Assembly (NCBI GenBank): GCA_000961575.1
Contig: LADP01000042.1
Location: forward strand, 1 to 64,000
DNA from: Peptococcaceae bacterium BRH_c8a
Lineage (GTDB): Bacteria; Bacillota; Desulfotomaculia; Desulfotomaculales; Desulfallaceae
Direction of reading: 5' to 3'
Length of the DNA stretch: 64,000 bases
Position 1 is the first letter of the stretch; each line of letters opens with the position of its first letter. The translations under genes were made by a program, and so were the position numbers. A model generated the notes under the pieces. The model made no database searches. It was not told the DNA's origin and worked only from the letters and a program-made list of their open reading frames with translations. Below are positions 48,856-62,820 of the stretch, piece after piece.

Positions 48856-49644
48856 TCATGGTTTTTTGAATATTAACAAGAACTCATGTATTTTATTAAG
48901 CCGAAAAACACTGGGGTATCCCAGCGGCCTCAGGTTGTTGTATTCGTGCCGGCGATCCCAGATAATGATATCGTCAAATATAAAGCCGATTTTTTGCATC
49001 CTTTGGGCCAGGTCGCTGTGCAGCGGGTAAAACATACTCTTTTTTCTAATATCCATGACATTGACAATGCAGTATCGGCTGCTCTTTAAAACCTGAAAAA
49101 CGTTGCAAAAGACCTGTTCCAAGGCTTCTAGAAACCGTTCGTAATCGTTGATCCGGCCCAAGTTCTCGGGTTGATTCCCGTAGTCCCGTTTTTGTTTGCC
49201 ATCAGCAGTACGTTTTTGAGACAAGATATCCCAGTATGGTGGTGACGTTACGCAACAATCAATTGAATTTGGTTCAATAATTGTGATTAAATTTCGGGCA
49301 TCGGCTTGATGTATTTCGTACCCGTTTTCTTGTTGCCGGGTAGACTGCTCCAAGCGCGCTCGGGTCAGTTGAATATATTCGTCAACCAATTCGAAACCAA
49401 TGCCATACTTACCGAGTTCCCTGGCAGCCATAAGTGCAGAGCCGCTGCCCGCAAATGGGTCTAGAACACGTTTATCACTCTCGGTGGTAAAACACATCAG
49501 TAACCGGGTAACAAGCATTTGAGGGAACATTGCCGGATGTTTCAACCGAGTTTCGTCCCTGCTTTTCCTAATGTCGTTCCAAACGCTTATGGAATATCTG
49601 GACCAGGCAGTGCCATCAAGTTCATTGGCCCTTTTTTTAACCAT
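48856..49644 (-). CDS. Orphan DNA methyltransferase (N4-cytosine/N6-adenine type)
   Basis: 262 residues. The SAM-binding motif is DPFAGSGSALMAARELG (about 62-78) and the catalytic motif TSPPYWD is at about 133-139. TSPPYW is the form usual for N4-cytosine enzymes. SAM motif before catalytic motif is the order of PF01555-type enzymes with the target-recognition part at the end. ATG at 49644 has AGGAG ten bases upstream; the longer ATG at 49662 has none. No restriction endonuclease is adjacent, so it is an orphan regulator or housekeeping enzyme, or the remains of a system. It is divergent from the SigH-like gene. Confidence 0.85.
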   Translation of the reverse strand: MVKKRANELDGTAWSRYSISVWNDIRKSRDETRLKHPAMFPQMLVTRLLMCFTTESDKRVLDPFAGSGSALMAARELGKYGIGFELVDEYIQLTRARLEQSTRQQENGYEIHQADARNLITIIEPNSIDCCVTSPPYWDILSQKRTADGKQKRDYGNQPENLGRINDYERFLEALEQVFCNVFQVLKSSRYCIVNVMDIRKKSMFYPLHSDLAQRMQKIGFIFDDIIIWDRRHEYNNLRPLGYPSVFRLNKIHEFLLIFKKP

Positions 49645-49817
49645 AAAGATTGTGCTCCTCATATAGGATTGATACTAGTTAATTATATCATAAATGTAAT
49701 TAAATGGTATATATGATTTTGTCTATAGAAGGATATTGGGTATTTCACCTAGAATTAGATTTTGGATTGTTTAAATGGTCTTTTTGATTGATATTGACAA
49801 CAAGGGGAGAGTTTCGG

Positions 49818-54939: not shown

Positions 54940-56370
54940 TTAGCGTGCTTCAATAAAGTTTTGTGCAAATTCATATATTTTTTGGCAAGGTACTGCCAGA
55001 TTAAGATTTTGTCCTTTATCAAAACCTGCCGTAATCAATCCCACTAGTCTTCCAAACATATCCAACAGTGCACCGCCAGAACTTCCATTGGAAATCGGAG
55101 CAGTGAACTGGATCATGGGTATCCCATTAATATCTCGGAAACCGGAAACAATGCCATCCGAAACGGAATTAAACAACCCTAAAGGACTGCCAATGGCAAC
55201 AATTTTCTGTCCCCGCACCAAATTACCATCAGTTTTAACAATGAGCGGTGAGCAGTTTTTATCAATTTTAATAATAGCTAGGTCATATTCCTGGTGATAT
55301 TTAATTAAATCAGCTGTGATATATTCTTTAGTTTCATTTTCGTAGAGCACAGAAAAAAGATGTCCACCCGCAACTACATGTAAATTAGTTAAAATATACC
55401 CGTTGCTATGAATGACAACACCGGAGCCGCTGCATAAAATATTATTATGATCATCATAAACTTTAATCATTACAACAGAGTTTGAAAGCCCGGCCAACTC
55501 CTCATAACTGTATTCTTTAGCGTTGGATAGATTTGAGGACATTTTTGCAGTATTAGGTATGCTAGAGCGGGAAATATTATCCGGCATTGAGGCCAAGGAA
55601 GGATGTCCTAGGTGCGGTGTAGGTAAAAAATCAGGTATTGTTACTTTATCTAGATATAGAGTGCTGCACTTATATAATGTTGAGTATTTTTTTACTTCAG
55701 GGTACAAATTGACAATGTCCTCTTGGGGGTTCATATAGCATATGTCACAGCCAAGTCTAGATAAGAAATACAAAAATAATAATTCATGATGTTTAATCTC
55801 TCCGATAAAAATAACTTTCGGGGAAACACTGATATTTATTGGGGTATAAAAAAGCCTTGGCAAATAAAGTTGCATCCAATTCATAAATTTAACAACAAAG
55901 TTTTTTAATGCAGTCGCATTGGAATTTGGATGTGTATCTTTGTATATCGAAATAATTTCTTTAAAGGTAATTTTCATAGTCCATTCAAGGGTATCGTTAC
56001 CTAATTGTATGCCCAGAGGTGTTTCATAAAGTGCAAGCGAATCATTGAAGGAATTATGAATAATATTTTGCCAATTTGCCCACACATTAGCTAGCCTGTC
56101 AACATCCTGTTGATTTGATAATTTCTCGAGCCTATGCAGCCGTAAGTAAGGAACGGTAGACATGCTTGAAGAAAAATGCCGGTCTATATTTAGAATACTT
56201 TCTATGTAAAGCTTAATGGAATCAGGAATACCAATATATCTTACAAAAAGAACTTCTTTAGTATGGACATAATAATTATCATTTTTGTTGATGAGCATAA
56301 AATCACCGAGAGGGTTTTTTGTTTCTTTAAGTTTAACCTTTAAAGGTTTAGTGCTCACTATCATATCCAT
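54940..56370 (-). CDS. YceG-like domain fused to an HtrA-type trypsin-like serine protease
   Basis: 476 residues. The C-terminal third (about 290-475) is a trypsin-like domain with a full triad: H331 (NLHVVAG), D363 (YDLAIIKI), S431 (SNGSSGGAL). The N-terminal 240 residues have no signal peptide or membrane segment and resemble the bacterial YceG family associated with tellurium-resistance-type gene clusters (VPYLRLHRLEKLS; HELLFLYFLSRLGCDICYMNPQED). Residues 245-285 are a Pro/Ser-rich linker. No PDZ domain follows. So the protease should be cytoplasmic. ATG at 56370, or 56364 with a better spaced GGGAG. It lies next to the tRNA-Leu remnant and is visibly AT-richer than the feo genes. The N-terminal assignment is tentative. 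Confidence 0.7.
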   Translation of the reverse strand: MDMIVSTKPLKVKLKETKNPLGDFMLINKNDNYYVHTKEVLFVRYIGIPDSIKLYIESILNIDRHFSSSMSTVPYLRLHRLEKLSNQQDVDRLANVWANWQNIIHNSFNDSLALYETPLGIQLGNDTLEWTMKITFKEIISIYKDTHPNSNATALKNFVVKFMNWMQLYLPRLFYTPINISVSPKVIFIGEIKHHELLFLYFLSRLGCDICYMNPQEDIVNLYPEVKKYSTLYKCSTLYLDKVTIPDFLPTPHLGHPSLASMPDNISRSSIPNTAKMSSNLSNAKEYSYEELAGLSNSVVMIKVYDDHNNILCSGSGVVIHSNGYILTNLHVVAGGHLFSVLYENETKEYITADLIKYHQEYDLAIIKIDKNCSPLIVKTDGNLVRGQKIVAIGSPLGLFNSVSDGIVSGFRDINGIPMIQFTAPISNGSSGGALLDMFGRLVGLITAGFDKGQNLNLAVPCQKIYEFAQNFIEAR

Positions 56371-56552: not shown

Positions 56553-56561
56553 TAATACTTT

Positions 56562-56632
56562 TGGTGCCGAAGGAGGGAGTCGAACCCTCATGAGTTTCCC
56601 CGCACGATTTTGAGTCGTGTGCGAAGTCTAGC
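56562..56632 (-). pseudogene. Truncated tRNA-Leu (CAA), 3' portion, probable attachment-site remnant
   Basis: Read on the minus strand the sequence gives the end of the D arm (GCTAGAC), anticodon arm GCACACGA-CTCAAAA-TCGTGC (anticodon CAA), variable arm, T arm GAGGG-TTCGACT-CCCTC and acceptor 3' strand CTTCGGCACCA. The 5' acceptor strand (GCCGAAG) and most of the D arm are absent; beyond 56633 the sequence is unrelated. This is what is left at one end after a genetic element integrates into a tRNA 3' end. Confidence 0.75.
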
Positions 56633-56639
56633 ACCCTAC

Positions 56640-57103
56640 ATATCCAGGTATATCAACGGTTTTCTCTTCATGGTTTAATTTAGACTTACACGATTTCTCT
56701 AAATGGAAACATCCCAAATCAGTGAATCGTGTAAGGTAATATTAGCATGATTGGCAAAGCCAAACAAGGTATGCAAAGTCCTCTTACCTTCAAACGTGTT
56801 AATTCTTCCTTCTATCTTGACTGCTGACTAACCCCACTCCATAGACAATGGGCATCTAAATTTTTGCTAGTAAACTATCCCCTACCCTCACATATGCTCA
56901 CCGTGTTCAGGAGTTTAACCTTTCATAGGGATGTGCAAATCCCCCCTTCGCATTATTGCTGACCAAACACTAGTATATAGACAAGCCTTTGTTTAAATTA
57001 AGTTTGTAAAGGTGGAGGGTTCCCGCTTTAACAGTACGAAGGAATTTTATACCTGTTCGTTGAAATATGCTTTAAGAATCAAGTCAGCAAGGAGAACTCC
57101 TTA
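56640..57103. other. Non-coding stretch at the left end of the accessory region
   Basis: No believable gene. It holds repeat A (56814-56910, listed separately) and AT-rich sequence just before the BglII-like gene. A GAAGGAATTTTATACC segment and AAGGAGAACTCCTT before 57104 supply the ribosome site. Confidence 0.6.
56814..56910 (+). repeat. Direct repeat A flanking the nuclease pair
   Basis: The first 29 bases (56814-56842) match 58544-58572 at 27 positions (core ATCTTGACTGCTG-CTAACCCC-CTCCAT). Similarity continues patchily through TAGTAAAC and ATGTTCAC-GTGT-like pieces to about 56910. Confidence 0.75.
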
Positions 57104-57676
57104 ATGCAATGTGAACATTACTTTTACAACTGTTCCAAGGAATATATAGATTCTATTAACCACAACCTATATCAAGAAATCATAGATGCATTAGACAAAC
57201 TTCCAAAGTTGGCAACCCAATCAGAAATCAATCGGCATTTATTCCGGGCATTGCTCAATAAGGGATGGTCTTATGATACATGCCCGCCTGGTGTAAAGGG
57301 TTTATCTTCAGGGGTATTGGATGCCTGTGGTCAAGGGAAAACTTCAAACAATCAGCGTTCCTTATGTTTAACTTCTTCAACCCTTGGTGCTAACTGGCAT
57401 ACTGATTTTGCAAAATCTATTAACGGTAAACTGATTCATATCGAAGCCCAATTTGGTAAAGTGGAATCTATGTTTAAAGACTTTTGTGGATTCAGAATAG
57501 CTTATTTTGAAAGACGTTTAGCTTTAGGAATTAAAATCGTTATTTCTGAACCCTATAAATACTTTTCTCATAGAAAAGCTTCTATTGGCGGGATGGCATA
57601 CTTCGATATTGCTAAAAGAACCTTGTCAGCAATTGGATTAAACTGCCCTATTTGGTTGATTGGGCTAAAGGAATAG
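57104..57676 (+). CDS. BglII/BstYI-like restriction endonuclease
   Basis: 190 residues. The central part has D101 (HTDFAKS) and E114-A-Q116 in LIHIEAQFGK, followed by a helix-rich RIAYFERRLALGIKIVISEP. This D...ExQ arrangement and the EAQFGK segment resemble the BglII family, whose catalytic residues are D-E-Q. The N-terminal helices and the region 60-95 (CPPGVKGLSSGVLDACGQGK) are less familiar. ATG at 57104 follows AAGGAG. No methyltransferase is adjacent; the convergent neighbour six bases away is another nuclease. Nuclease of type II or a stand-alone effector. Confidence 0.6.
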   Translation: MQCEHYFYNCSKEYIDSINHNLYQEIIDALDKLPKLATQSEINRHLFRALLNKGWSYDTCPPGVKGLSSGVLDACGQGKTSNNQRSLCLTSSTLGANWHTDFAKSINGKLIHIEAQFGKVESMFKDFCGFRIAYFERRLALGIKIVISEPYKYFSHRKASIGGMAYFDIAKRTLSAIGLNCPIWLIGLKE

Positions 57677-57681
57677 AATAA

Positions 57682-58482
57682 TCAATCATCTGTAAAATCT
57701 TGAACTCTTTCAAAATAAAGATATAGAGGTTGCCTATCAACCCCTAAACCTTTCTGTATCATAATATCAATTATGCTTTCACCATTCATAAGGATTATCG
57801 GTACAGCACCCTTTTTTATGGAAGCTTCTTTTGCCTGTTGGGTAAAGTCCGAGGTCGTAAAGAAAATGCCTTGCTCATACTCCCCTTGAATAGCCCCTCT
57901 AAATTTATCTATTTCAGGTCTACCAACAACCCCTTGCCAGCGTTTGCATTGAAAGGCTACATACATAGATGCAAGGCCGACTTTCAGTTTTCCAAATCCA
58001 TCTATACCACCATCGTTTGAAATCTTTGTGTTTTCAAGGCTTACAAACCCATACGCTTGCAAAAACTTTTTAGAGAATGCTTCAAACTGAGCGGGACTTA
58101 GTTCAAGCAAACGTTCAAGAAGTTGGGTTCTTATGCCTTGTTCATAATCTTCATATAGTTCAACTAGGTTTTTAGGTTGACTATTAGGTTCCTTATTAGA
58201 TATACCTTTGATACGTTCGATGCCCTTTGCAGTTATTTCCCATATACCATATTCAGGAGAACACATTTCACCTAGGGATACTAAACGCTGTCTAACCCAC
58301 TGAATTCTGTTATTCCACTTATTGCCACCAGAAGACAATGTCTTCTGAACATCTTCTTGAGTTAATTGCGGGAATTTTTTAGAAACTAAGGGATATATAA
58401 TTGATGGTTTACCCTTACCCCCTATTTCAATTAGAACTTGGAGCAAGGGAAACTCAATTTCAGATTGCTTGGGCATAGACAT
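57682..58482 (-). CDS. Mrr-like restriction endonuclease (type IV, methyl-dependent)
   Basis: 266 residues. N-terminal winged-helix (about 1-95, EFPLLQVLIEIGGKGKPSIIYPLV...WEITAKGIERI), then the Mrr catalytic domain: LSPAQFEAFSKKFLQAYGF, D157-GGI-D161-G and Q178-C-K180-R (AFQCKRW), then FFTTSDFTQQAKEAS. This is the PD-(D/E)xK variant of Mrr, which cuts DNA with foreign methylation. ATG at 58482 has GGAGGG eight bases upstream; the longer opening from 58530 lacks one. It is convergent with the BglII-like gene and bracketed with it by direct repeats A and B. Confidence 0.88.
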   Translation of the reverse strand: MSMPKQSEIEFPLLQVLIEIGGKGKPSIIYPLVSKKFPQLTQEDVQKTLSSGGNKWNNRIQWVRQRLVSLGEMCSPEYGIWEITAKGIERIKGISNKEPNSQPKNLVELYEDYEQGIRTQLLERLLELSPAQFEAFSKKFLQAYGFVSLENTKISNDGGIDGFGKLKVGLASMYVAFQCKRWQGVVGRPEIDKFRGAIQGEYEQGIFFTTSDFTQQAKEASIKKGAVPIILMNGESIIDIMIQKGLGVDRQPLYLYFERVQDFTDD

Positions 58483-58543
58483 GGGAAAAACCCTCCATTT
58501 GCTTTTGAGCATTATACCACGCTTGCTCATTCAAGAAGCGTAT

Positions 58544-58646
58544 ATCTTGACTGCTGGCTAACCCCGCTCCATGGGCATTAACCTTTTTTATTTCAAGTTA
58601 GTAAACCCCTGCCCTTAACTTATGTTCACTGTGTCCATAAGTTAAG
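58544..58646 (+). repeat. Direct repeat B, with an 11-bp inverted repeat at its end
   Basis: Starts as repeat A (see 56814). Its right part is CTTAACTTATG (58614-58624) and CATAAGTTAAG (58636-58646), a perfect dyad that may terminate the minus-strand methyltransferase-like transcript. A related GGACACCGTGTCC dyad lies near 62947. Confidence 0.7.
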
Positions 58647-58686: not shown

Positions 58687-59640
58687 TTAAATATCAGCTT
58701 CTGTAAATGTAGGGAAATAGCGGTAGACTTGTGCATATCGTTCTATATCTCTTTTCGGTACACCAGGAGCATCTAGTTCTTCAAGATTCGCAGTTGGGAG
58801 CTGGGCATTAAGCTGACGTATTTCACGTAAGGTTAAATTAGGTACTTCTATGAGATAAGGTTCCTCATTATTTTTTATGAATGGAAGACTTCCAAAAGCA
58901 CAACTTTCCAGTTTAGGCAACTGGCCTTCATCATATAATATTCCTCCAACGGTAAGCATTTTTGCACCATCAGAATAATGAAAATTAAACAGCTGTCTAT
59001 ATAGAATCTTTTGCCCTGAAGGTCTAATTGCATTTCTATCTGTTAGAGTTTCATCTATTTCGTTTTGAACAATCCTTCTACTTATTTTTGCTAGTCCCCA
59101 TGAGTTTAAATCTCCTGGTGCTACGTTTGCTGGAACTTTTTCAACGCCGACATACTCCCTTAGTGTGTCTAGCCTTTCAGTTGGAAGTTCTTTATATTGA
59201 TATGGGTGAGCATTAACAGAGATAATTATTAAGCTCCCAGGTGCTGAATTGGCTGTAATGTGTTTAATATCTTCTAAAACACTATTGTTTAACGCTCCAT
59301 CGTAATCCAACCATGTTAAGGTACATATATCGCCCCACGGCAATTGCGGTAATATTTCATTTGATTCCCCAAAATTTATTTCAATACATTTAAACGGTCT
59401 ATTAAATAAAAACCTTTCTGTGTTTTCAGTATCGTGTTCAATGCTATTCATCGCACATATATTTAACTCTTTATGAAAAAGATTAAAGTCACTGAAATAA
59501 GGGGAGCCAAATCCTACGTATCTATATGATTCTACCAACCTGAAATCCGATAAGCGTCTAAAGGCTTCACATAACATTTTTCTTTCAATGCATTTAGCTG
59601 GTCTTAAGGCATAATTAATCCTCTCATAACTCCCACTCAT
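58687..59640 (-). CDS. Methyltransferase-like protein partnered with the GHKL ATPase
   Basis: 317 residues, unassigned family. Residues 40-145 read like a class I SAM methyltransferase: YVGFGSPYFSDF (41-52, glycine loop), NSIEHD (65-70, acidic end of strand 2), INFGESNEILPQLPWGD (88-104), TWLDYDG (109-115), and a hydrophobic SLIIISVNAH (136-145). The C-terminal 150 residues are mostly helical and unrecognised (DLNSWGLAKISRRIVQNEIDETLTDR; NLTLREIRQLNAQLP). Its ATG overlaps the stop of the GHKL gene by one base (TAATG), so the two are made together. The substrate could be nucleic acid, protein or small molecule; methyltransferase activity itself is inferred. Confidence 0.65.
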   Translation of the reverse strand: MSGSYERINYALRPAKCIERKMLCEAFRRLSDFRLVESYRYVGFGSPYFSDFNLFHKELNICAMNSIEHDTENTERFLFNRPFKCIEINFGESNEILPQLPWGDICTLTWLDYDGALNNSVLEDIKHITANSAPGSLIIISVNAHPYQYKELPTERLDTLREYVGVEKVPANVAPGDLNSWGLAKISRRIVQNEIDETLTDRNAIRPSGQKILYRQLFNFHYSDGAKMLTVGGILYDEGQLPKLESCAFGSLPFIKNNEEPYLIEVPNLTLREIRQLNAQLPTANLEELDAPGVPKRDIERYAQVYRYFPTFTEADI

Positions 59641-60971
59641 TATTCCTCACACTCCAAATCAAAATAATACTCAAATGTTTTTTCACCAACCTCCTTATAT
59701 GTGTCTACGTTTAGAATTTTTTTAATTTTTTCTATTTCCTTAAGTGGTTTAGCATATGAAATACGACCCATCTGTGGTTTGTCCTTTCCTTTTAGACGGG
59801 CTGGTGCAATAAAAATCTGTGGTTGGTTGTACTCAAAGCGTTCAATAATTTCTGGTTTAGCATCATTAATAAATAATTCGAGCGGTGTAGGGTCTTCCTT
59901 TTCATCTTTATTCTCTTTTTCTGATTCAACTTTTTTTAGAAACTCCAATATTGGACGCATCAAAGTAATCATTTCTAAACGCACTGAACGGAATACTGAA
60001 GAACTATAATCAACATCACTTTTGGTAGTATTCCATGGAAGAAATTTTGCTACGTCAGAATCAAAATATGCATAACCTCTAAACCTTGCGTATCTATTAT
60101 GAAACTGAGGGTTGCCGTCACCCCACCCTGTAGTTTGAGTCTTATCTGCTTCAAGAATCAATCTACCGTTACAAAATATGTGCCAACCTGCTTTAGATGG
60201 TTCTGATTTAGATAAGCCTGCAAAAATTTTTACCTTTACTTGATTATCCTCAACAGAAATTGAGAGTTCTTTATGTGCTGGCTTAAGGTTGCTGGACAAT
60301 AATAACTCAGCTGGCCTATGTTTGAGGGGTATTCCATTTAAAGTAATTGCTAATCCTTTATCTAAACTAGATTGATGAGCAGCTTCAATTTCGGATATAA
60401 GACGGGTTTGGAAATTTTCTAATCTAAATTCATCAGATACAGTTTGATGAAGTTCTGTAACCGTTATTTTTGTTCCACTTTCTTGCCCCGCAGGCAATTG
60501 CCAATTATCATCTATATCACTAAAATGAAAATCCCAATTAGATTTATCTTTTGCCCATTCAAGAACGTTTTGGGTTACGACAAAACGGGAGTTTTCTGTT
60601 TGTGATTCAATGCTAAAAACGTTACCTAACTTAAATAATGACCTTTTCATACCTACACCAAACTGTCCAATGGAATATGGCATATCAGGCATACCTTCAG
60701 CCCTGCCGAACCGAAATGCATATTTCCTTGCTAAATCAACTGAAATACCGCCACAATTATCCGCTATTATAAAGTGAGCCTTATCAATTTCTATTCTTAT
60801 ACTTAAACCATCATATTGTCTATTTAGTCTTAACCTTCTTGCACCGTCTACACTGTTATCAACTAAATCTGCAATTGCACGAATTAGTGATATATCCTTT
60901 GTAAGCATAAAAATAAAGAATTCTTTTGTTGGGGAAGCATCTATTCTTGTTCTGCTCACTGGTTCTACCAT
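59640..60971 (-). CDS. GHKL (Hsp90/MutL/MORC-like) ATPase
   Basis: 443 residues. Bergerat fold from about 25 to 190: N box ADLVDNSVDGA (34-44, with D35 where most have the catalytic Glu), G1 ADNCGGI (70-76), G2 GQFGVGMKRS (102-111) and a downstream GTKITV strand. A second domain (about 240-370) contains GWHIFCNGRLILEADKT, like the S5-type transducer domain of MutL/MORC proteins. The C-terminal 75 residues are charged. ATG at 60971 follows AGAGGTG; GTG at 60980 is possible. It is the first gene of the pair with the methyltransferase-like protein, in an island with nucleases and a recombinase, so a defence role is plausible. Confidence 0.8.
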   Translation of the reverse strand: MVEPVSRTRIDASPTKEFFIFMLTKDISLIRAIADLVDNSVDGARRLRLNRQYDGLSIRIEIDKAHFIIADNCGGISVDLARKYAFRFGRAEGMPDMPYSIGQFGVGMKRSLFKLGNVFSIESQTENSRFVVTQNVLEWAKDKSNWDFHFSDIDDNWQLPAGQESGTKITVTELHQTVSDEFRLENFQTRLISEIEAAHQSSLDKGLAITLNGIPLKHRPAELLLSSNLKPAHKELSISVEDNQVKVKIFAGLSKSEPSKAGWHIFCNGRLILEADKTQTTGWGDGNPQFHNRYARFRGYAYFDSDVAKFLPWNTTKSDVDYSSSVFRSVRLEMITLMRPILEFLKKVESEKENKDEKEDPTPLELFINDAKPEIIERFEYNQPQIFIAPARLKGKDKPQMGRISYAKPLKEIEKIKKILNVDTYKEVGEKTFEYYFDLECEE

Positions 60972-61106
60972 TTTTATCACCTCTCAATCCATATTTCTTC
61001 CTTTACCGATGTTTTTCCTTTTTTTTCACATAGAGTAAAACTTAAACTATGACCACAATAATTGTTCGTAAAATACCATTTAAAACAGATTAAACGGTTA
61101 AGTTTT

Positions 61107-61149
61107 CTAGCAACATAAGCTAGCAACACAATGAGAATTATGTTGCTAG
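61107..61149. promoter_or_regulatory. Array of CTAGCAACAYAA repeats resembling a tyrosine-recombinase core site
   Basis: CTAGCAACATAA (61107-61118), CTAGCAACACAA (61120-61131), six bases TGAGAA, then TTATGTTGCTAG (61138-61149). The last two form a 12-bp inverted pair (one mismatch) around a 6-bp spacer, the geometry of a Xer/integrase crossover site. A fourth copy, CCAGCAACACAA, lies at 61207-61218, and the integrase starts at 61248. It may be the site used by the integrase, its operator, or both. Confidence 0.6.
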
Positions 61150-61247
61150 TTGCATGGTTATTTGGTATAATAGTGTCAACAAGTAACCACTTAGCAGGTG
61201 TAAATCCAGCAACACAATTATTTAAAGCACCTAAAGGAGGATTTACA

Positions 61248-62114
61248 GTGGAACATGTTGACCAATTCAGAGAGGAATTAATCAGGCAAGAGAAATCAAC
61301 TAACACCATATCAAATTACATAAGGACAATTGCTGACTTTGCTAAGTACATTGAAGGCAGGACAGGTAAACAATTTGACCCCAAAGAAATGATTGAACTG
61401 GATATTAGAGAATATAAATCTTACCTGCTTAGCAATGCCAAGCAGAACCCTGCCAGCATTAACAATAAGCTTTCTGGTTTATCCAAGTTCTGTGATTACC
61501 TGTCCGCAATTGGTGTTTTATCATCCAACCCTGCCAAGGCAGTTAAGAAGGTTAAAATACAAGCCAAGGATACCGCTCCCAAGTCTTTGTCAAAGAATGA
61601 TTTCTACAAGCTAAGAAGGGAGTTCCACAGAAGCGTTAATCTAAGGGACATAGCCATCATTGAAACCCTATATAACACTGGATGCCGTGTCAGTGAGCTT
61701 TGCAATATTGAACTAGATGATATTCAAATCAGTGAAAGAAAAGGCACATTAACAATCAGGTCTGGTAAGGGTAGTAAATACAGAACAATCCCCTTAAATG
61801 CTCCTATCAGAAAAGCTATATCAGATTACTTAGGGGTTAGACCCTTAACCAATGATAAAAGACTGTTCCTAGGCCAACGTGGAGCTTTAAGAAGGGAAGC
61901 TGTTTTCCGTATCCTTAACAGGTATGCAACCAAGGCAAATGTTGGAGAGGTAAGCCCGCATATGCTAAGGCATACATTCTGTCGGGAGTTGCTTACCAGT
62001 GGGGTAGATATTACAACTGTTGCAACATTGGCCGGACATGCTAACATTAATACCACTATGGTATATACCCAACCGACAGAGGATGAGAAGATTTCAGCTT
62101 TGGGTAAGTTGTAA
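61248..62114 (+). CDS. Tyrosine recombinase/integrase (XerC/D-like)
   Basis: 288 residues. N-terminal SAM-like core-binding domain (FREELIRQEKSTNTISNYIRTIADFAKYI), then the catalytic domain with the first Arg in TLYNTGCRVSELCNIELDDI, HMLRHTFCRELLTSGVDI (HxLRH), LAGHANINTTMVYTQ (GH...Y nucleophile). GTG at 61248 has an excellent AAAGGAGG; upstream in-frame codons run through the repeat array and are not coding. It would integrate or excise the element, or resolve dimers. A promoter-like TATAAT is present at about 61165, before the start. Confidence 0.9.
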   Translation: MEHVDQFREELIRQEKSTNTISNYIRTIADFAKYIEGRTGKQFDPKEMIELDIREYKSYLLSNAKQNPASINNKLSGLSKFCDYLSAIGVLSSNPAKAVKKVKIQAKDTAPKSLSKNDFYKLRREFHRSVNLRDIAIIETLYNTGCRVSELCNIELDDIQISERKGTLTIRSGKGSKYRTIPLNAPIRKAISDYLGVRPLTNDKRLFLGQRGALRREAVFRILNRYATKANVGEVSPHMLRHTFCRELLTSGVDITTVATLAGHANINTTMVYTQPTEDEKISALGKL

Positions 62115-62406: not shown

Positions 62407-62820
62407 TTGGATACTTCAACAGTGGTATGCGGAGCCAATCACTTAGATGTCAATGCACTTACCTGTCCCGTTTGCGGGAAACCTGGTAAAGAAGTGCGGT
62501 CTGAAACAATTAAAAATATCGTTAAGGAAGAATGTCTTCCAACCGTAAATGAAGGCTTTTTTCTCTGCCTTTCTAAGGATTGTAAGGTTATATATTTTGG
62601 TAATCAGATTTACTTCAAGCCCGATGTTAAGGTTAAAGTGTGGTTTAAAGAGGAAGATAATCCTTCAGTACCATTGTGTTATTGTAAGAATGTTTCTAAA
62701 GAAGATATTTGTAACCATATTGCCTTTCAAAAATGCTGTTCAGATTTAAAAAACATTCAGGAACATACTGGTGCAACTACTGGTAAGGAGTGTCTGACTA
62801 AAAACCCAGCGGGCACATGA
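62407..62820 (+). CDS. CopZ-type (2Fe-2S)/zinc metallochaperone-like protein
   Basis: 137 residues. N-terminal zinc-ribbon-like CPVCGKPGKEV (about 20-30), then a domain of alternating Cys (FFLCLSKDCKVIYFG, VPLCYCKNVSKEDICNHI). The LCYCKNVSKEDI segment matches the BFD-like [2Fe-2S] domain seen in the N-terminus of the Archaeoglobus CopZ copper chaperone and related metallochaperones, though the copper-binding HMA half is missing. TTG at 62407 has AGAAAGGAG upstream. It is common on mobile elements of clostridia beside metal transporters; none is seen here. Confidence 0.75.
   Translation: MDTSTVVCGANHLDVNALTCPVCGKPGKEVRSETIKNIVKEECLPTVNEGFFLCLSKDCKVIYFGNQIYFKPDVKVKVWFKEEDNPSVPLCYCKNVSKEDICNHIAFQKCCSDLKNIQEHTGATTGKECLTKNPAGT

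Follow-up and report, generated by a model that had tools for sequence, protein, structure and literature searches.

Two adjacent genes of Peptococcaceae bacterium BRH_c8a, encoding a MORC-like GHKL ATPase and a protein of the Methyltransf_35 family (PF20553), represent a real, tightly linked and widespread gene unit carried by phages, prophages and, in this genome, a mobile island. We think it probable that the members of this family are the attacking half of a modification-guided, restriction-modification-like defence, in which the DNA mark is made by a separate enzyme encoded next to the pair. The window, i.e. the whole stretch of DNA that was analysed, has a length of 64,000 nt (contig LADP01000042.1); the copy of the pair that it carries is an orphan with regard to such an enzyme.

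The two genes and their predicted folds

Both genes are located on the minus strand of the window. The first one (59640–60980) encodes an ATPase of 446 aa and begins with GTG; an earlier note on this DNA, made from the sequence alone, took the in-frame ATG at 60971 as the start. The second gene (58687–59640) encodes a Methyltransf_35 protein of 317 aa. As described in the earlier note, the genes overlap by one base, with base 59640 common to both ORFs. A profile search detected a single PF20553 gene in the genome and none in 15 other searched genomes of the host's family.

The ATPase matches the HATPase_c_3 domain (PF13589) with E-value 3.5e-9. All ten top structural matches of its AF2 model (pLDDT 90.3) are MORC chains with Z-scores from 22.1 to 23.1; the best one is MORC3 (Z 23.1, rmsd 4.2 over 302 residues), and MORC2 has Z 22.9. 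Hsp90 and SMCHD1 rank after MORC, no more than ∼2 Z units behind. Residues D38, N42, G108, G110, K112 and K320, the motif GWxxxCNxR and the motif glycines are invariant in the family. The earlier note had proposed a Bergerat-fold ATPase with Asp in place of the usual catalytic Glu; this assignment is supported by the PF13589 match and by the invariance of N42 and the glycines, as well as by the presence of Asp38 at the position of the catalytic Glu in all 48 scorable family members. Asp at this position is, therefore, a trait of the family, and Asp38 may act as the base in place of Glu. The catalytic Glu of the N box is a general feature of GHKL ATPases and is not given as a defining one in Iyer et al. 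2008. The S5 stretch of the ATPase, GWHIFCNGRLI (residues 265–275; G265, C270, N271 and R273 are invariant in 49 of 49 sequences), fits the S5 motif GhXhhpXXRhl given for prokaryotic MORC proteins in the main text of Iyer et al. (PMC2292703), with C classed as polar in the motif notation used there. As modelled, the protein is a MORC-type ATPase with GHKL ATP-binding motifs and an S5 domain.

The second protein matches PF20553 with E-value 1.4e-107 (360 bits versus a cut-off of 27) over positions 2–307 of the 309-position profile. Its AF2 model (pLDDT 92.9) has the strand-helix order of a class-I Rossmann methyltransferase and the final hairpin. The residues expected at the SAM site are kept in nearly all family members: G43 in 37 of 43, G45 in 42, E or D at position 68 in all 43 and D112 in 42; residues Y10, R20, Y41, D51, R76, W110, E273 and P310 are invariant. 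Thus, the second protein, described earlier as SAM-methyltransferase-like, is confidently predicted to have a class-I methyltransferase fold with SAM-binding residues. The closest solved folds are those of tRNA/rRNA methyltransferases, with class-I methyltransferases and their relatives found at Z from 11.9 to 14.4. The top match is Trm1 (3axs, Z 14.4, rmsd 4.0 over 219 residues); since Trm1 is less than one Z unit ahead of several other folds, the fold match does not name a substrate. The structure predictions that the earlier note had suggested thus gave a MORC-type fold for the first protein and a Rossmann methyltransferase fold for the second.

A search for solved structures related by sequence to either protein found none. 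Neither protein has a recognizable nuclease domain: Pfam searches detected only the GHKL and Methyltransf_35 domains, and the predicted folds agree.

Conservation of the pair and the exchange of its modification enzyme

When viral contigs were searched with nothing but the ATPase alignment, 73 loci were identified; in 70 of them a Methyltransf_35 gene was situated directly downstream, so that the frequency of adjacency is far above chance. In the three remaining loci, the ATPases are longer (571–624 aa; L115:6105–7958, L117:10004–11878 and L118:9998–11713); there, a C5 methyltransferase gene adjoins the ATPase gene and Methyltransf_35 is absent. Fusion of Methyltransf_35 into these ATPases was rejected, as profile comparison found no such domain in the C-terminal extensions. 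Loci found in genomes and plasmids via PF20553 or homologues have the ATPase gene directly upstream on the same strand, with two exceptions: a Sinorhizobium locus with ∼3 kb inserted between the two genes (L011) and a locus with a broken second gene (L033). Both genes show strong purifying selection, with median dN/dS from 0.02 to 0.07 within close groups. Clustering (70% identity) reduced the ATPase loci to 49, of which 46 have the partner gene (non-redundant pair loci). On haloarchaeal plasmids, we observed distant relatives of the ATPase adjoining Dam-type methyltransferases (L013 and L014); the L014 gene is also close to dptF and dptG.

The neighbourhood survey proposed in the earlier note found the pair conserved and linked to DNA-modification genes. 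The Pfam label of PF20553, ‘putative O-methyltransferase’, would suit a metabolic or housekeeping pair that came to lie near defence genes by chance. Such an origin of the observed pattern appears highly improbable, given that PF20553 has a rare and patchy occurrence (4 of 398, 5 of 395 and 3 of 301 genomes in profile searches of three phylum samples) and that the pair is carried by phages and islands and linked to DNA-modification genes.

C5 cytosine methyltransferase genes are the most frequent neighbours among these modification genes. Of the 46 pair loci, 37 have one no more than 7 kb away (as do 40 of the 49 ATPase loci); measured for 34 of the pair loci, the distance is at most 100 bp in 26 and at most 684 bp in all. 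A Vsr-type gene is situated within 7 kb in 12 of the 49 ATPase loci. Four other pair loci (L034–L037) have an N6/N4 methyltransferase, Dnd phosphorothioation genes occur at two (L006 and L008), and in one from Microvirga (L012) the pair is inside a DISARM operon with MmeI. In total, a DNA-modification enzyme is encoded nearby in 44 of the 46 non-redundant pair loci, which makes the pair look like part of a restriction-modification-like system. The two loci without such a gene are L060, truncated by the start of its contig, and the window copy, whose flanks are readable. Of the two-component module suggested in the earlier note, the conserved pair stands, while its stand-alone character does not.

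In the tree built from joined protein sequences, two single clades are nested among the C5 loci, that of the N6/N4 loci (97%) and that of the Dnd loci (100%); this placement indicates that the partner modification enzyme has been exchanged. Evolutionary distances of the ATPase correlate with those of the Methyltransf_35 protein at r = 0.79 and with those of the C5 methyltransferase at r = 0.32, each value exceeding all 2000 permutations. We read these comparisons as suggesting that the two genes are tightly bound to each other and that the modification enzyme beside them can be swapped. Within locus L006 (L006:1–15946), PbeA, PbeC, two unassigned ORFs and the pair make up one same-strand run, convergent with DndBCDE; according to PADLOC, PbeA and PbeC are components of a phosphorothioation-linked system.

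The same neighbourhoods could arise if the pair were part of the modification arm, with the second protein being a MORC-driven, ATP-dependent nucleic-acid methyltransferase, or controlling the neighbouring DNA methyltransferase, in an epigenetic or phage-protecting device. The retention of the SAM motifs (G45, the acidic residue 68 and D112), the similarity to solved tRNA/rRNA methyltransferase folds and the many copies in phages and prophages agree with this role. Still, the pair also occurs with Dnd, MmeI/DISARM and N6/N4 methyltransferases, none of which is known to need such a helper; the L006 pair shares its run with PbeA and PbeC; and the ATPase covaries just loosely with the C5 enzyme. 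We consider a role in modification unlikely and prefer to place the pair in the attacking half. No nuclease recurs in the 25 commonest families of the 130 neighbours of the pair; restriction enzymes or helicases are encoded at single loci.

Several loci belong to well-known phages and prophages. In Pf phage PfAC20, the genes for the ATPase, the Methyltransf_35 protein and a cytosine methyltransferase are consecutive; the methyltransferase was classed as an incomplete system by its describers (PMC11878078). A lambdoid version of this three-gene cassette, which includes prophage Sp10 of Escherichia coli O157:H7 Sakai (ECs_1953–1955), has its pair in 172 of 5426 complete E. coli genomes and its methyltransferase in 172; for the cassette of P2-like E. 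coli prophages both numbers are 45 of 5426. As the E. coli copies belong to near-identical prophage lineages, these counts reflect stable linkage, not many independent events. The P2-like cassette (L163:1734–8186) has a portal gene on one side and a replication endonuclease gene on the other, a gap which we take to be a known accessory-gene site of P2-like prophages. In the open-access literature, we found no paper that treats this cassette in connection with defence hotspots in P2-like prophages.

The orphan copy on a mobile element

The broken tRNA noticed in the earlier note is a 65-bp sequence at 56559–56623, identical (100%) to the 3′ part of tRNA-Leu. The second copy of this direct repeat, at 66496–66560, is situated past the window end, as are the intact tRNA-Leu(CAA) gene (66499–66583, minus strand; detected by ARAGORN) and the integrase gene beside it (65388–66365, minus strand). 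The repeat, the intact tRNA gene and the adjoining integrase delimit an element of ∼10 kb (56559–66560), with the 56559–56623 sequence as an attachment-site copy; the element therefore extends past the window end. In a sister genome, this tRNA-Leu(CAA) is occupied by a different element that brings an integrase of its own. Just beyond the left end of the element we observed a gene (54940–56370, minus strand) for a protein of 476 aa with a YceG_bac-like N-terminal domain (3.9e-21) fused to an HtrA/trypsin-like protease (2.1e-24). A CopZ-N-terminal-like zinc/iron-sulfur protein is encoded within the element (62407–62820, plus strand); its best NCBIfam model is a (seleno)protein family, with a score below the cut-off.

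All three neighbours listed in the earlier note were recovered, one of them with a weak score. The Mrr-like nuclease gene (57682–58530, minus strand; Mrr_cat 1.6e-25, Mrr_N 8.9e-16) is located 156 bp downstream of the pair. The XerC/XerD-like tyrosine recombinase gene (61131–62114, plus strand; PF00589 8.3e-36) is located upstream. The BglII-like ORF (57104–57676, plus strand) matches PF09195 with E-value 0.0017 and 18.6 bits, below the 26-bit cut-off, so only a weak similarity stands for the predicted BglII-like nuclease; the ORF has no relative near the other compared loci and no methyltransferase gene beside it. An imperfect direct repeat (56813–56915 and 58543–58643; 72% over 105 columns) flanks the BglII-like and Mrr genes.

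Given its position on the same strand just downstream, the Mrr gene could form with the pair a local three-gene unit in this island, where Mrr would do the cutting; a related Mrr near the pair in L039 also fits this arrangement. The L039 gene, however, is on the opposite strand, and no other surveyed locus has a related Mrr nearby. With Mrr present near only two loci, a conserved unit of the pair and Mrr was ruled out, and even a unit confined to this island seems quite improbable. Mrr is probably a neighbour and not a conserved part of the module; the Mrr, BglII-like and recombinase genes are all outside the conserved module.

No modification gene was found on the 56559–66560 element. Three candidates for a missing modification enzyme were rejected. 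The first, a C5 gene surviving as a remnant within the island, left no trace in a tblastn search. The only C5 methyltransferase of the genome (contig C45), a possible partner in trans, is ∼31% identical to the pair-linked kind and belongs to another branch. An N6/N4-type methyltransferase gene (48856–49662, minus strand) is located outside the element and is kept at ∼86% DNA identity in the sister genome, which lacks PF20553. This gene has no adjacent nuclease gene; its retention in the sister genome suggests that it is probably a core orphan methyltransferase.

Although an orphan carried by a mobile element, the window copy of the pair is structurally intact: neither reading frame is broken, and residues that are near-invariant in the family have been retained. 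It has either lost its DNA-modifying partner or never had one, and its local function is thus uncertain: the copy could be a relic, could depend on a mark of some other kind or could do no harm unless triggered. In the tree, the window copy and loci L031 and L046 form a 98% clade. Both of these nearest relatives have a C5 gene directly upstream of the ATPase gene, on the side that is occupied by the tyrosine recombinase gene in the window. This difference, along with the absence of any C5 trace from the island, is what one would expect if the window copy were a decaying leftover with no present function, whose C5 gene was lost, perhaps in a rearrangement around the tyrosine recombinase gene. 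We regard such decay as a real possibility, short of an even chance given the intact frames and conserved residues; it is compatible with a role of the family as a whole in attack.

A model of action and its relation to known systems

If the pair serves as the attacking half in a defence system, we infer the following course of events. A separate modification enzyme, usually a C5 cytosine methyltransferase, would mark the host's own DNA. The ATPase, if it behaves like MORC and MutL, would form a dimeric clamp that closes on DNA upon ATP binding; DNA looping was proposed for the whole MORC class in the main text of Iyer et al. (PMC2292703). The methyltransferase-fold protein would be an obligate partner that reads, with SAM bound, the sequence or its modification state. 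We put forward the role of a reader subunit tentatively; an analogy is provided by BREX, where, according to the abstract of PMC11842806, the site is read by the methyltransferase subunit. Unmarked incoming DNA would be held and then cut or silenced. The DNA may be cut by an unrecognised site or by a borrowed host nuclease, or it may be blocked without cutting; we make no choice between these options.

Three considerations weigh against the attack model. Classical restriction is in doubt, since no nuclease is recognizable in the pair or recurrent among the 130 neighbours. The orphan copy in the window would be odd if an active restriction half is harmful without its mate. Finally, neighbourhood alone does not separate attack from assistance to a methyltransferase. 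A different form of restriction would do without a nuclease: the MORC clamp, guided by the methyltransferase-fold reader, would entrap and silence DNA lacking the host's mark, whatever its chemistry, and would thereby parallel in bacteria the silencing by MORC proteins of eukaryotes. We hold this form to be rather improbable.

As a candidate attacking module, the pair can be compared with several described systems. Operons of MORC ATPase and cytosine methylase genes were predicted to be parts of restriction-modification systems as early as 2008 (PMC2292703, main text). The pair resembles the prokaryotic MORC and paraMORC proteins described there in its GHKL and S5 domains and in neighbourhoods with C5 methylase and Vsr genes, some without a helicase gene. 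It differs in having Asp for Glu as the presumed base, in its fixed Methyltransf_35 partner, absent from the main text of that work, and in its coupling also to N6/N4 methylases and Dnd. The HEF_HK/Response_reg_2 duplet (PMC8011034) likewise has an HATPase_c_3 ATPase and a second gene adjoining a C5 methyltransferase gene; its second protein is, however, response-regulator-like, whereas that of the pair is predicted to have a methyltransferase fold. In Shedu, VcSduA/paraMORC3 is a GHKL ATPase active in phage defence, and an ATPase mutant of VcSduA is inactive (PMC12137116); unlike the pair, VcSduA is a single protein with its own PD-(D/E)xK nuclease and no methyltransferase-like subunit. MzaB of the MZA system, also a GHKL ATPase, is weakly similar to the window ATPase (20.6 bits versus a cut-off of 850). 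The Microvirga pair is situated inside a DISARM operon, in 1 of the 46 loci, whereas drmA, drmB and drmC are absent from the island in the window.

The earlier note knew of no named system with exactly this composition, and the comparison with PADLOC-DB 2.0.0 agrees: neither protein of the window pair had a match even at E-value 1, nor did four distant pairs at 0.001. In the open-access literature, with PADLOC 2023 as the sole set of defence models, we found no paper that names or describes the pair or mentions PF20553; it is possible that the pair has a name elsewhere. As far as this literature shows, the fixed Methyltransf_35 partner, the exchanged modification chemistry and the link to supposedly orphan prophage methyltransferases are new.

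If the attack model is true, many prophage cytosine methyltransferases that have been read as orphan or incomplete would be members of full cassettes of three genes, the other half of which had escaped annotation; examples are the PfAC20 methyltransferase (PMC11878078) and, in E. coli O157:H7 Sakai, the Sp10 DNA methylase. The cassettes would offer a compact, E. coli-borne system for asking what role bacterial MORC ATPases play, a question standing since 2008, and a way to ask how one attack module serves such different marks as 5-methylcytosine, N6/N4 methylation and phosphorothioate.
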